Of a DNA stretch of 64,000 nucleotides, positions 23,839-30,432 are shown piece after piece. The stretch is taken from the NCBI RefSeq assembly GCF_900111935.1, contig NZ_FOYN01000002.1, forward strand, positions 744,001 to 808,000, read 5' to 3'. The DNA comes from Halorubrum sodomense. Lineage in GTDB: Archaea; Halobacteriota; Halobacteria; Halobacteriales; Haloferacaceae. The translations under genes were made by a program, and so were the position numbers. The notes below the pieces were generated by a model. The model worked only from the letters and a program-made list of their open reading frames with translations. It ran no database searches and was not told the origin of the DNA. The stretch's first letter is position 1; each line of letters starts with the position of its first letter.

Positions 23839-24336
23839 CTAGAGCAGGAACGTCTCCTCCTTCTCCGCGAGGTCGACGAAGTCGTCGGCGGCGTCGATCA
23901 GTTCGTCGGCGGCCGAGTTGCCGAACCCCATCGCCTCCACCCGGACCCCCTCGTGACGGAGGTGCGAGCAGAGTCGCGCGAAGTCGCCGTCGCCGGTACA
24001 GAGGACGACGGTGTCGACGTGGCTCGCGAGCGAGACGGCGTCGAGGCTCATTCCGAGGTCCCAGTCGGCCTTCTTCGAGCCGTCGGCGAACGTCTTGATC
24101 TCCTTGATCTTCGTCTCGAAGCCGATGTCGCGGAGCGCCTCGAAGAAGCTCTCCTCCTCGGGGGAGTCGGCGCGGATCACGTACGCGATGGCACGCACCA
24201 GCGACCGGTCGGAAACGGCCTCATCGAGGAGGCCGGAGTAGTCGATGTTCCGCGAGTAAACGCTCTGTGCGGAGTGATACAGGTTCTGCGAGTCCGCCAA
24301 CACCGCGACGCGCTGGTCCGGGTGAATGTCGGTCAT
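23839..24336 (-). CDS. NYN-domain (LabA/DUF88-like) putative ribonuclease
   Basis: 165 residues of a PIN-like NYN fold. Acidic residues of the metal site are seen in VAVLADSQNLYHSA, KKADWDLGMSLDAV and VVLCTGDGDFARL. Such proteins are taken to be metal-dependent RNases or RNA-binding regulators. Convergent with dapE and divergent from the next gene; an in-frame extension upstream of 24336 lacks protein-like character. Confidence 0.85.
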   Translation of the reverse strand: MTDIHPDQRVAVLADSQNLYHSAQSVYSRNIDYSGLLDEAVSDRSLVRAIAYVIRADSPEEESFFEALRDIGFETKIKEIKTFADGSKKADWDLGMSLDAVSLASHVDTVVLCTGDGDFARLCSHLRHEGVRVEAMGFGNSAADELIDAADDFVDLAEKEETFLL

Positions 24337-24453
24337 ACGTCCCCCTTCACCGCCCGCGGTTAGGGGCTTTGGGATCGTCGCGCCCGCGATCGCGGCGTCG
24401 CGGTTCCACCGGTGACCACCATGGTTTATGCCCGGCGCTGAAGACCGTGGGCC

Positions 24454-25557
24454 ATGGACGAAAAGCGGTTCGTCGTCGCCCTCTTCGGCCTCGCGGTCGC
24501 GTCCGTCGCCGGCTACGTGGCCTATCGGTTCGTCGCCCCGCTCACCGTCGCCGTCTTCCTCTACTACTCGACGCGGCGCTTCTACCACCAACTCGAACGC
24601 TTCCGGCTCCCGGCCCGGGTGCGTGCGGTCGTGTCGCTGTCGGTCATCGGCGTCCCGCTCATCGGACTGGTGGGATACACGCTGGTGTTGCTCGTCCTGG
24701 AAGCGCGGCGGTTCATCGAGACCTATCCGGTGGCCGACACCATCGGCGCGGAGAACTCCGTGATCGCCGACCTCGCGGAGCTGTCGAACCCGACGACGGA
24801 CGAGCTGCTCGCGGCGTACCGATCCGGCCAGTTCGACCCCCTGATCGACCTCGTCTCCGAGCAGGCGTCGCTGCTGGCGAGCACGCTGTCGGGGCTCGCG
24901 TTAAACCTCCTCATCACCGTCGTCGTCACGTACTACCTGCTCATCGACGGTTCCCGGTTCCACGACTGGCTGCTCACCTTCGACGACGACGCGGTCGTCC
25001 GCGAGTACCTCGAGACCGCCGACGACGAGCTGGAGGCGGTGCTGTACGGGAACCTCCTCAACGTCATCGCGATCGCGATCATCGCCGTCGTCACCTACCT
25101 CGCGTACAACGCGATCGCCCCCGCCGCGGTCGAGATCCCGTATCCGACGCTCGCCGGTGCGCTCACCGGGGTCGCCAGCCTGATCCCCGTGATCGGGATG
25201 AAGATCGTCTACGTCCCGCTGGCGGCCGCGATGTCGATTCCGGTCGCGCTCGACGGCGACGTCTCGCTCCTCGCGTACGTCGCCGGGTTCCTCGCCGTCG
25301 CGGCCGTGATCGTCGACACCATCCCCGACATCGTCCTCCGGCCGTACTTCAGCGGCGAGACGACGCACGTCGGGCTGCTCATGCTCGCGTACATCTTCGG
25401 CCCGGTCGTGTTCGGCTTCCACGGGCTGTTCCTCGCGCCGATCGTCCTCGTGTTGGCGCTGACGTTCGCCGACACCGCGCTGTTGCGTCTGCTCGGCGTG
25501 CGGCCGGATCGGGAGCCCGAGATCCCCGAGCATCAGCGCCGGCTGGACGAGTTCTGA
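24454..25557 (+). CDS. AI-2E transporter family (PerM-like) membrane protein
   Basis: 367 residues with about eight membrane helices in the typical arrangement: three at the N-terminus, a soluble helical domain (about 90-140), then five. The C-terminal AYIFGPVVFGFHGLFLAPIV and PVIGMKIVYVPL are family hallmarks. Members export small molecules or act as ion antiporters; the name does not prove AI-2 transport. TATA-like GTTTATG at 24424-24430. Confidence 0.88.
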   Translation: MDEKRFVVALFGLAVASVAGYVAYRFVAPLTVAVFLYYSTRRFYHQLERFRLPARVRAVVSLSVIGVPLIGLVGYTLVLLVLEARRFIETYPVADTIGAENSVIADLAELSNPTTDELLAAYRSGQFDPLIDLVSEQASLLASTLSGLALNLLITVVVTYYLLIDGSRFHDWLLTFDDDAVVREYLETADDELEAVLYGNLLNVIAIAIIAVVTYLAYNAIAPAAVEIPYPTLAGALTGVASLIPVIGMKIVYVPLAAAMSIPVALDGDVSLLAYVAGFLAVAAVIVDTIPDIVLRPYFSGETTHVGLLMLAYIFGPVVFGFHGLFLAPIVLVLALTFADTALLRLLGVRPDREPEIPEHQRRLDEF

Positions 25558-25634
25558 GCCGTCGGGGGCGCCGCGTCGACGCGGTCGCTGCCGCGGCGCG
25601 AACGCTCGACCGATCGGCCGCGGCGAGCCGAAGT

Positions 25635-25641
25635 CATATAT
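25635..25641 (+). promoter_or_regulatory. TATA-like box of the tubulin-like gene
   Basis: CATATAT centred 27-28 bases before the ATG at 25666; fixes the start and indicates a leaderless mRNA. Confidence 0.55.
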
Positions 25642-25665: not shown

Positions 25666-26817
25666 ATGCGACTACACGTCATCGGCCTCGGCGGGGCCGG
25701 GGGTCGGATCGCCGACCGGCTCGCCGCCGCCCACGACGACGACCCGTTCCTGGCGGGCGTCAACGCGTTCGACACCGACATGGACGCGCTCGGGACGCTG
25801 GACGCGCTCCGCGAGGAGCGCCGGTACCGGTTCGGTGACGCCGCGGGCGGCGACGGGCTCGGCGGCGACCTCCACGCGGGACGCCGCCTCGGTGACGCAC
25901 ACGCGAGCGAACTCGGCAGGGCGATGGACGACCAGCGCCCGTCCCTCGCGGAGGCGTTCCTGATCGTCGTCGGCCTCGGCGGCGCGGCCGGGGCGGGCGC
26001 GGCGCCCGCGCTCGCGGAGGAGCTCTCGCGGCTCTACGACGCGCCGGTCTACGCCTTCGGGCTCCTTCCGACCCCGAGCGAGACCGAGGAACCGGACGGG
26101 GGAGAGAGTCCGACGAGCGCGGCCTCCGGAAGCGAGTCGCCGTCGGCGCCGCACCGCCCGCTGGCCGAGCGGAACGCCGCGCGGACGCTCGACGCGCTCT
26201 CGGACCGCTGCGCGGCGGTTCTCCCGTTCGACAACGCGGCGTGGCTCCGTCCGGGGGAGACGCTCGACGGGGCTCGCGACCGGCTCAACGGGGTCGCCGT
26301 CGAACGGATCTCGGCGCTGTTCGGCGCCGGTGAGACGCCAGAGGGGGCGGAGACGCCCCAGCAGGTGCTCGACGCGAGCGATGTCGCCCGGGCGGTGGGA
26401 AGCGACGGCGAAATCGCGGCGATCGGCCACGCGACGCAGGCGGTGGAGTCGCCCGGCGAGGGGTCCCGGTTCGGGCTCGGGCTGTTCGGCTCCTCGGAGC
26501 CGGCCGAGGTCGACACGAGCGCCGCGGTGTCGGCGATCGAGACGGTCATCCGGAAGGCGGCACGGGGGAAGAACACGATCGCGGTCCCGGAGGGGCGGGC
26601 CGACCGAACGCTGCTCGTGGTCGGCGGCCCGCCGGCGTGGCTCAACCGCGAGGCGATCGCTGACGGGCGGCGCTGGCTCGCCGAGGAGACCGGCTCGGAC
26701 GCCATCCTGAGCGGCGACGCGCCGGTCCCCGAGGGAGACGCCGTGTTCGCGGTCGTGATCCGCTCGGGCATCGACGAGCCGGACCGGGTCCGCGAGCTCC
26801 GCGAGACGATCGCGTGA
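25666..26817 (+). CDS. Divergent tubulin/FtsZ-superfamily-like protein
   Basis: 383 residues. The N-terminus RLHVIGLGGAGGRIADRL is a good match to the first nucleotide-phosphate loop of FtsZ, and GVNAFDTDMDAL follows where FtsZ has its second loop. The tubulin signature GGGTGTG is replaced by GGAAGAG (residues 105-111). A Ser/Pro/Glu-rich insert lies at about 130-160. It fits a poorly studied haloarchaeal group of non-canonical FtsZ-like proteins distinct from FtsZ1, FtsZ2 and CetZ. Whether it binds or splits GTP is doubtful. Confidence 0.65.
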   Translation: MRLHVIGLGGAGGRIADRLAAAHDDDPFLAGVNAFDTDMDALGTLDALREERRYRFGDAAGGDGLGGDLHAGRRLGDAHASELGRAMDDQRPSLAEAFLIVVGLGGAAGAGAAPALAEELSRLYDAPVYAFGLLPTPSETEEPDGGESPTSAASGSESPSAPHRPLAERNAARTLDALSDRCAAVLPFDNAAWLRPGETLDGARDRLNGVAVERISALFGAGETPEGAETPQQVLDASDVARAVGSDGEIAAIGHATQAVESPGEGSRFGLGLFGSSEPAEVDTSAAVSAIETVIRKAARGKNTIAVPEGRADRTLLVVGGPPAWLNREAIADGRRWLAEETGSDAILSGDAPVPEGDAVFAVVIRSGIDEPDRVRELRETIA

Positions 26818-26894: not shown

Positions 26895-27629
26895 GTGACG
26901 ACGCAGGCAGAACTCGGGATCGACGTCGACGTTCGCGACGCCGCGGCCGTCGCGGAGCGCCGCGACGAGCTCGTCGCCGCCGTGCGCGACCACGCGGGAC
27001 GGATCGCGTATCAGCTCGCCAAGCTCCAGGGGGGCGACTACGGCCGCGAGAGCCTCTCGACGCCCGGCGGCGAGTGGACGGTGAAACACGAGGCGGGCGA
27101 GCTGGAGTTCCTGTTGTTCTCTCCGAACTCGGGGTCGGACACGTACGTGATCTCGACGAAGCAGCCGCCGGAGCCGGCGGCGCTGTCGAGCGCGCTCGAC
27201 GACTACGCGGCGTTCGTTGCGGCGTGGAACGATCACGTCGCGTCGCTTTCGGGCGTCCTCGACGGCGTGAGCGCGGAGTTTCCCGAGCCCGCGACAACCG
27301 ACGGCGTGGTGGCCGAGCGCGACCGGGTCCTCGACGAGATCCGCGACACCTGCGCGCTCATCGCCGGCGAGGTCCACCGGTACGAGAGCGACGACTACGG
27401 GACGTTCACGGCCCGCGTCGAGGGCGATCGCTGGGAGCTAAAATACGACGAGGGGGAGGTTTCGTACCTCCGAATCGGCGGGTCCGGCGGTCTCTACCTC
27501 CTCTCGCAGTACGAGTCTCCGTCCGCGGCCGACGTTCGAGAGTACGCCGACCGGTTCCGCGGGTTCGTCGAGGCGTACAACGAGTTCGTCGACGAACTCG
27601 AAAGCGATCTCCGGCGCGTCTCCGTCTGA
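26895..27629 (+). CDS. Unknown protein with two repeated domains, 244 aa
   Basis: Two halves (about residues 20-115 and 135-235) share one pattern: a helix, then GGDYGRESL / SDDYGTFTA, GEWTVKHEAGELEFL / DRWELKYDEGEVSYL, a strand ending in Y, and a final helix YAAFVAAWNDHV / RGFVEAYNEFV. So it arose by internal duplication. Starts with GTG at 26895, with a TATA-like GATTAAG 27 bases before. Function unknown; soluble and acidic. Confidence 0.78.
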   Translation: MTTQAELGIDVDVRDAAAVAERRDELVAAVRDHAGRIAYQLAKLQGGDYGRESLSTPGGEWTVKHEAGELEFLLFSPNSGSDTYVISTKQPPEPAALSSALDDYAAFVAAWNDHVASLSGVLDGVSAEFPEPATTDGVVAERDRVLDEIRDTCALIAGEVHRYESDDYGTFTARVEGDRWELKYDEGEVSYLRIGGSGGLYLLSQYESPSAADVREYADRFRGFVEAYNEFVDELESDLRRVSV

Positions 27630-28898: not shown

Positions 28899-28923
28899 AT
28901 TTCCGGGGCAACGGCGACGACTG

Positions 28924-29238
28924 TTTATAAACGAACTGCGGTGGCGCGTGCCTGCGAGCGGCCGCCCTCGGCGGCCGCGAGTCAGCACGCGCGAGGGAGT
29001 CGCTGGCGGCCAGAGCGGAGCGAAGGCCGCCAGCGACGAGGCTGGGGAGGTGTGAGGTTGCGGTGCGGTCGCGGTCGGGTGGGGCTCAAAAGGGCAGTCG
29101 CGAGGACGAAGACGCGCGACGTAAGCACTGGAGGGAGTGAGCGAAGCGAACGACCGAAGCGCGCAACGAGCGCATCGAGTCCTCGCGGCTGGGGCTTTGG
29201 CGGTGTTCGCTACCGATCCGCTGTCAGTTATTTATAAG
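28924..29238 (-). repeat. Structured intergenic element, copy B (short type, inverted)
   Basis: Both ends carry TTTATAA (28924-28931 and 29231-29238). On the minus strand the order is conserved box, P1 (29179-29191 with 29095-29107, one mismatch that becomes G-U on the plus strand), 71-base interior, 63-base linker, P2 (28999-29011 with 29025-29037, 13 perfect pairs) and P3 (28944-28951 with 28985-28992, inner nine-pair stem). It separates purK from purE. Confidence 0.87.
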
Positions 29239-29351
29239 TGAGCAGCCAGGGCTTCGGCGACGTCGACCGCGACGGCAACCGCGGCTACCCACTGGTTCGC
29301 GCAGTCGCCGCATCCGGGAGTTCCTTGTAGCCCTCCGCCGAACTTCCGTCT

Positions 29352-30004: not shown

Positions 30005-30134
30005 TTTATAAGCGGCTGCGTACGGAACCGCGGAAGAGGCTTCCAAAGCCCGAGCCGCTCGTTTATAAGTAGTCGACACCGGATCGGCGGCGAACGCCTC
30101 CAAAGCCCCAGCCCCTCGGCTGTCCGACGAATTT
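30005..30134 (+). repeat. Two extra left ends of the structured element in tandem before copy C
   Basis: The module TTTATAA ... CTCCAAAGCCCCAG occurs at 30005-30056 (diverged, TTCCAAAGCCCGAG) and 30062-30114, then a third time as the start of copy C at 30135. The first two lack stems P1-P3. Spacing is 57 and 73 bases. Confidence 0.78.
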
Positions 30135-30432
30135 TTTATAAACTATCGATCGACACGAACACCTCCAAAGCCCCAGTCGCGAGGACTCGGTGCGCTCGCT
30201 GCGGTCCTCGTCACTCGTTTCACTCGTTCCTGCGGTCCTTGCGTCGCGCGCCGTCGTCCTCGCGACTGCCCTTTTGAGTCCCGCCTCGAACCGCCACGCA
30301 CAGCACCTCACGCCTCCCCAGCCTCGTCGGTCGCCGTCGCTTCGCTCGGCGACCGACTCCCTCGCGCGTGCGACATCGCGCCCTGCGGGCGCTCGTCGGC
30401 ACGCGCCGACCGCACCGGCGCTCACTTATAAA
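30135..30432 (+). repeat. Structured intergenic element, copy C (short type)
   Basis: Starts at TTTATAAA (30135-30142) and ends at TTATAAA (30426-30432). P1 pairs 30174-30186 with 30256-30268 (13 perfect pairs) around 69 bases. P2 pairs 30326-30336 with 30347-30357 (11 perfect). P3 pairs 30364-30371 with 30399-30406 with inner GCGCCC/GGGCGC. P2 and inner P3 sequences differ completely from other copies yet remain complementary. It lies between purE and nuoA. Confidence 0.87.

Follow-up and report, generated by a model that had tools for sequence, protein, structure and literature searches.

A CetZ-family tubulin homologue in Halorubrum that lacks the T4-loop threonine

An open reading frame in Halorubrum sodomense encodes a tubulin-superfamily protein in which the residues GGAAGAG stand where tubulins and FtsZ have GGGTGTG or GGGTGSG. 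The locus raises two questions: what kind of tubulin homologue is this, and does it pass through a normal GTP cycle? The frame occupies positions 25666-26817 on the forward strand of the window, the 64,000-nucleotide stretch of contig NZ_FOYN01000002.1 that we analyzed and to which all coordinates refer. The first-pass annotation had described the product as a non-canonical tubulin that might form filaments without a normal GTP cycle or regulate FtsZ or CetZ. Overall, the protein proves to be a genuine, conserved variant of the known CetZ family, and a mildly surprising one.

The reading frame is open in the H. sodomense window and encodes 383 amino acids, with a Tubulin GTPase domain at residues 4-141 and a CetZ_C domain at residues 197-381. 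It is a real gene and not a chance reading frame, as indicated by the Pfam and PDB matches given below, by the presence of an orthologue in every Halorubrum genome searched (52 of 52), and by dN/dS values of 0.18-0.33 for seven orthologue pairs. The ATG lies at the same position in relatives. A BRE/TATA-like element, CGAAGTCATATAT (25629-25641, + strand), ends 24 nt upstream of the ATG; its TATA-like CATATAT (25635-25641) is kept in the nearest relatives, and ATAAA-type variants are found in most other Halorubrum. The element suggests that the gene has its own promoter and may give rise to a leaderless transcript. For the paralogues, dN/dS is 0.044 for CetZ1 (one pair) and 0.12 and 0.10 for CetZ2 (two pairs). 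The cetZ-like gene is thus under purifying selection, though looser than that acting on CetZ1 and CetZ2. We rejected a decaying gene on the dN/dS values; the conserved T4 glycines, T6 asparagine, T7 acids and S9-H10 region likewise give no look of decay. A known defence gene was set aside because PADLOC returned no match, and a common plasmid gene because the 29 plasmid records matched were all below 60% identity.

Several comparisons identify the protein as a CetZ-family tubulin homologue. The Pfam Tubulin model matches with E 2.1e-16 (61.2 bits against a cut-off of 33) and CetZ_C with E 5.2e-36 (124.2 bits against a curated cut-off of 21.6), while the FtsZ model TIGR00065 scores 32, far below its cut-off of 295.2. 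The best PDB sequence matches are H. volcanii CetZ1 (4b46, E 3.6e-55) and CetZ2 (4b45, E 3.1e-31), against E 1.7e-4 for the best other FtsZ chain. An AlphaFold2 model built from 33 rows has a mean pLDDT of 83.3 and a pTM of 0.85, with pLDDT below 50 only at residues 144-159, in an insert, and 265-279, in the M-loop. Foldseek places 4b46 first (E 3.1e-31). In VIA-align comparisons the model superposes on CetZ1 with Z 44.0 (rmsd 1.6 Å over 323 residues, 34% identical) and on CetZ2 with Z 41.4 (2.0 Å over 323 residues), followed by Methanosaeta CetZ at 36.7 and the best FtsZ at 34.1; all 726 aligned PDB chains have Z of at least 8, with 44.0 the highest. The structure prediction that the first-pass annotation proposed as a check therefore returned the tubulin GTPase fold, and not a fold lacking that domain. 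The annotation was right about the superfamily, but we rejected a separate non-canonical tubulin family, because the CetZ_C domain and the matches to PDB sequences and folds all point to CetZ. Domain content, sequence, fold and tree position agree in making the protein a CetZ and not an unknown tubulin type.

Within the CetZ family, the protein is an orthologue of neither CetZ1 nor CetZ2. The source genome holds five matches above the tubulin-domain cut-off: two FtsZ-type proteins (so assigned because both lack CetZ_C), one relative each of CetZ1 and CetZ2, and the window protein. Both alternative assignments were rejected, since this genome encodes those two relatives at other sites and they branch separately from the window protein in the tree. 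The window protein falls in a separate clade of 42 rows (SH-aLRT 99) and not with H. volcanii CetZ1, which has the genome's own CetZ1 relative (L001) beside it in an 82-row tree (a quick IQ-TREE run with no bootstrap, with 44 Halorubrum rows thinned to 21). CetZ2 has the same fold as the window protein, but differs from it in its short M-loop, its GGGSGSG T4 loop and its separate place in the tree. The M-loop of the window protein (26458-26502, + strand; residues 265-279) is long and disordered, like that of CetZ1 in length and unlike that of CetZ2; CetZ2 M-loops are described as short, 3-6 amino acids (PMC9856176), and 18-19 residues separate the M-loop anchors in 52 of 52 Halorubrum proteins, which do not group with CetZ2.

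The subfamily defined by this clade extends beyond the genus. Orthologues in the 52 Halorubrum genomes are 69% or more identical to the window protein, three of them found in two pieces; the 31 loci in which we compared gene neighborhoods (L040-L070; 68-91% identity) include 29 named Halorubrum. In the wider family we searched 148 genomes, 30 of them Halorubrum, and four others (G064, G052, G079 and G059; 62-54% identity) fall in the same clade, with weaker matches among the 118 non-Halorubrum genomes placed on the tree only in part. A second haloarchaeal family (f7, probably Natrialbaceae) has a match at E 1e-102 or better in 65 of 125 genomes, covering 16 of 29 genera. This cut-off is not clean alone: the Halolamina-type CetZ of G124, which lies outside the subfamily in the 82-row tree, passes it at 5.8e-110 because a 33-row alignment (A1) included one row of that type (L072). 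We therefore placed the 65 matches by tree, and all fall inside the subfamily clade with support 99 in a FastTree of 139 rows, 121 of them subfamily rows, which carries a long-branch warning. The loop counts below are based on these 121 members, that is, 52 Halorubrum, 65 f7 and 4 others. Brown and Duggin (2023) describe CetZ1, CetZ2 and a third, uncharacterised subfamily in Halobacteria (PMC9856176). Their third subfamily is likewise an uncharacterised CetZ group found in diverse Halobacteria, and from its description in that paper it may plausibly be the one studied here.

The T4 loop of the window protein (25978-25998, + strand; residues 105-111) keeps its glycines and has Ala108 in place of threonine (codon 25987-25989). 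That GGAAGAG is a GGGTGTG signature missing its threonine was correctly noted at first pass, and the loss is fixed in the genus (52/52). By alignment count, the fourth position of the loop is Ala in 51 and Val in one of the Halorubrum proteins, Thr in 64 and Ser in one of those from f7, and Thr in all four other members. In a 105-row tubulin set (106 rows minus the fragments L070, L073 and L122b, plus two PDB CetZs), 61 rows remain once the Halorubrum orthologues are set aside, of which 55 have Thr and 6 have Ser. The window protein thus departs from the usual CetZ T4 loop of the GGG[TS]GSG type; the Thr/Ser is a variable residue within the CetZ family and not its defining test. When the T4 and insert columns are left out of the tree (97 rows), a single change suffices for the loss, with a branch support of SH-aLRT 99. 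Within the subfamily, Halorubrum alone has neither Thr nor Ser at this position.

All four T4 glycines are kept in Halorubrum. One orthologue, from a MAG, has a T4 loop that reads exactly GGGAGTG. In the Haloparvum orthologue (L071) the loop is GGGTGAG. The threonine-bearing relatives also have an altered T3 loop, and their T4 is mostly GGATGGG; in f7 the last T4 glycine is lost in 6 of 65 proteins and the T6 asparagine in 5 of 65. Given these changes, the pocket may matter less in the subfamily as a whole. A neighboring CetZ group from other genera of the family (L086-L092 and L099) carries T4 loops altered in a different way, such as AGGSGAT and AGATGAT, with the T7 acids intact. Among the matches listed in our literature search, none dealt with CetZ T4 variants or Halorubrum CetZ in its title or the opening of its abstract.

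The remaining T loops mix conserved and altered features. GLGGAGG, noted at first pass as a canonical first loop, is the T1 loop (25684-25704, + strand; residues 7-13) and corresponds to GFGQAGG in CetZ1. The T2 loop reads AFDTD (25765-25779, + strand; residues 34-38) against AVNSA in CetZ1, and a mostly xFDTD T2 is a mark of the subfamily. The T3 loop, GGDGLGGDLHAG (25846-25881, + strand; residues 61-72), is without the N-E of the CetZ1 loop, KGHGVGADNELG, and an altered T3 is a further mark of the subfamily. The T6 loop has Asn170 (26173-26175, + strand) at what we take to be the guanine-specifying position. The T7 loop, VLDASD (26365-26382, + strand; residues 234-239), for which a search had been proposed at first pass, aligns with VVDSSE of CetZ1, with D239 opposite E218. 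Both acids, D236 and D239, are present, and D-x-x-D occurs in 121 of 121 subfamily members, compared with D-x-x-E in CetZ1. The asparagine of the FtsZ motif NxDxxD is absent, as it is from CetZ1 and from H. volcanii CetZ2 (VVDTSE).

The T5 loop carries a disordered insert rich in Pro, Ala, Glu, Asp and Ser (26071-26163, + strand; residues 136-166, with pLDDT below 50 at 144-159). The Ser/Pro/Glu-rich insert reported at first pass is thus present, and it occurs throughout the subfamily instead of being peculiar to the window protein. Between LLP, at the end of strand S5, and AERNA, in the next helix, CetZ1 has 7 residues, compared with 18-53 in the Halorubrum proteins, 21-95 in those from f7 and 17-29 in the other four members; at 31 residues, the loop of the window protein is 24 longer than that of CetZ1. 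Over 82 members, the insert is 16% Pro, 16% Ala, 11% each of Glu, Asp and Gly, and 9% Ser, and is poor in hydrophobic residues. In this family the T5 loop adjoins the nucleotide, and the insert may touch it. The FDTD T2 loop, the disordered T5 insert and the DxxD T7 loop together serve as marks for recognizing this uncharacterised CetZ subfamily.

Conservation is unevenly distributed along the protein. Among twelve regions compared, the S9-H10 region, with PPAWLNR (26629-26649, + strand; residues 322-328), is the most conserved, with a mean of 0.92 over 82 members. The means for T1, T4 and T7-H8 are 0.89, 0.83 and 0.78; T3 stands at the overall mean of 0.71, and the insert at 0.29. The 33-row alignment A1 shows little or no variation at the T4 glycines, T6 asparagine and T7 acids. 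At 137 positions, 85% or more of the 82 members agree, and CetZ1 has the identical residue at 76 of these. The window protein and CetZ1 have in common the fold, CetZ_C, the long M-loop, the T6 asparagine, the T7 acid pair and the LNR motif. They differ in T2, T3 and T4 (GGGTGSG in CetZ1), and the acidic C-terminal tail found in the CetZ1 sequence is absent from the window protein.

An experimental precedent for the T4 change is a laboratory mutant of E. coli FtsZ, FtsZ[T108A]. The published oligonucleotide encodes GGGAGTG, and the mutant is reported to have almost no GTPase activity, to form rings with GTP that are sized like those of the wild type, and to show no treadmilling (PMC5979038). 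A second report likewise describes the GTPase of this mutant as low, with some activity left, and its polymerisation as comparable in rate (PMC8175707). As in the window protein, Thr is replaced by Ala at the same T4 position and the T7 loop is present; in the window protein, however, the change arose in nature, has become fixed across a genus and sits in a CetZ background. In S. aureus FtsZ, G108 of the T4 loop and T109 bond a gamma-phosphate mimic (PMC8936486), and by our reading of the numbering T109 corresponds to E. coli T108.

On the strength of these T108A data and gamma-phosphate contacts, we consider slow hydrolysis with retained assembly the likeliest outcome: the Halorubrum CetZ would bind GTP, assemble and hydrolyse slowly, giving low-turnover filaments, a reading to which we assign a probability of roughly 0.4. 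Conservation of the pocket glycines, of the T7 loop and of the S9-H10 region is our reason for expecting that GTP binding and end-to-end joining into filaments would be retained. With the T4 threonine gone, the gamma-phosphate may be poorly positioned and hydrolysis slow, so that filaments, or mixed filaments with CetZ1, would turn over little. The disordered T5 insert might further alter nucleotide exchange or provide a binding site. Its role in the cell would be that of a long-lived cell-shape scaffold instead of a dynamic one. Deletions of all eight H. volcanii tubulin-like genes are reported to change morphology in biofilm (PMC10606840), so even a minor CetZ could well be important for cell shape. 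The earlier proposal of filaments without a normal GTP cycle thus holds for the altered signature, and for filaments and cycle is a sound guess from FtsZ[T108A]; for a regulator of FtsZ or CetZ we found no supporting evidence. A stronger form, in which fixation of the FtsZ[T108A]-type change made a dynamic CetZ of the Halorubrum lineage into a naturally hydrolysis-arrested, near-static, GTP-capped scaffold, possibly acting as a stabilising seed or cap in CetZ1 filaments through its intact T7 loop, strikes us as somewhat unlikely. In E. coli FtsZ the T4 threonine separates assembly from hydrolysis, and a genus-wide fixed change beside threonine-keeping relatives offers a natural test of the need of a tubulin-type cytoskeleton for GTP hydrolysis.

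The T7 loop can be read in more than one way. Its acids, present without exception, fit an active enzyme equally, and the protein could be an ordinary CetZ with a normal GTP cycle and a role in cell shape, in which Ala or Val at T4 is tolerated or is compensated by T2, T3 and the FtsZ-like DxxD of T7. Since T2, T3 and T5 differ as well, the T108A effect may indeed be offset in the window protein; the pocket is reworked across the subfamily, so that the behaviour of the E. coli FtsZ mutant may not transfer to it, and the gene is under purifying selection. Even so, T108A by itself is reported nearly to abolish the GTPase of E. coli FtsZ (PMC5979038, PMC8175707), and Thr or Ser is retained in every row of the tubulin set outside the Halorubrum orthologues; we regard unchanged activity as somewhat unlikely. 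The acids may instead be kept for assembly, since T7 mutations are reported to disrupt polymerisation and not GTP binding (PMC3684127).

An intact T7 loop could also serve a CetZ1 neighbor in a mixed filament. The protein would then be a co-polymer partner or end-cap that completes the CetZ1 active site with its T7 while its own pocket stays GTP-locked, thereby tuning CetZ1 dynamics. The retention of the T7 acids alongside altered T3 and T4 loops, the 76 positions shared with CetZ1 and the tree-placed CetZ1 and CetZ2 relatives in the same genome are compatible with such a partnership, but cetZ1 is unlinked, on another contig, with none of the window neighbors near it (L103), and we judge this arrangement unlikely. 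Less probable again is a pseudo-GTPase, a plain binding protein that neither binds GTP nor polymerises, as suggested for the FtsZ of N. maritimus (Nmar_1262). This natural archaeal homologue likewise has an altered T4, AGKAGSA, and is reported not to polymerise in yeast (PMC3684127); the altered T3 and T4 of the window protein and its looser constraint relative to CetZ1 and CetZ2 would agree. However, N. maritimus FtsZ seems from the same report to be without T7 too (PMC3684127), a double loss of T4 and T7 motifs that does not occur in any of the 121 subfamily members, and Halorubrum keeps the T7 acids, T4 glycines and T6 asparagine as well as a highly conserved S9-H10 region.

The genes around the locus add little to the low-turnover reading or its rivals. 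An AI-2E family transporter gene lies upstream (24454-25557, + strand), and downstream is the gene for HP244 (26895-27629, + strand), a 244-amino-acid protein with no Pfam family above cut-off; both are conserved neighbors within the genus, the transporter only there. Of the 31 loci L040-L070, 28 have the transporter near the cetZ-like gene, 29 have HP244 and 27 have purK, and some of the absences are contig ends. Beyond Halorubrum, we examined 21 subfamily loci (L071, L083-L085 and L129-L145), covering 6-7 kb to either side of the gene, or less where a contig ends (L071 and L085), and none of the window neighbors searched for was present. In f7 (L129-L145), other genes recur by ORF comparison, with two loci checked against Pfam: 15 loci have a tRNA-intron endonuclease gene, and 9 have genes for tRNA synthetases of the Trp/Tyr and Phe types. 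Linkage conserved only in the genus, with other genes recurring in f7, says little about function, and we rejected a functional link through neighbors.

Some further features of the region and of Halorubrum CetZs deserve mention. The two halves of HP244 look alike by eye, and in Halolamina (L095, L097, L072 and L073) HP244 is also encoded a few kilobases away from another CetZ. Inverted intergenic repeat blocks at 28912-29271 and 30029-30392 flank purE, with six arm pairs of 28-85 nt that are 75-90% complementary. Halorubrum species differ in the distances that separate purK, purE and the gene after it, which suggests a mobile or amplified non-coding repeat. Some Halorubrum carry tandem pairs of divergent CetZs (L108 114-2825, L109 165-2933 and L122 406-3228), and in L108 and L109 the second member has a long insert in the T3 region; from their description, these pairs resemble the 'Halo.Tub' copies that PMC9871819 mentions as quasi-tandem. 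Finally, a gene for an NYN-domain protein, a putative RNase, lies on the opposite strand at 23839-24591 and is found at this place only in the loci of the closest Halorubrum relatives.
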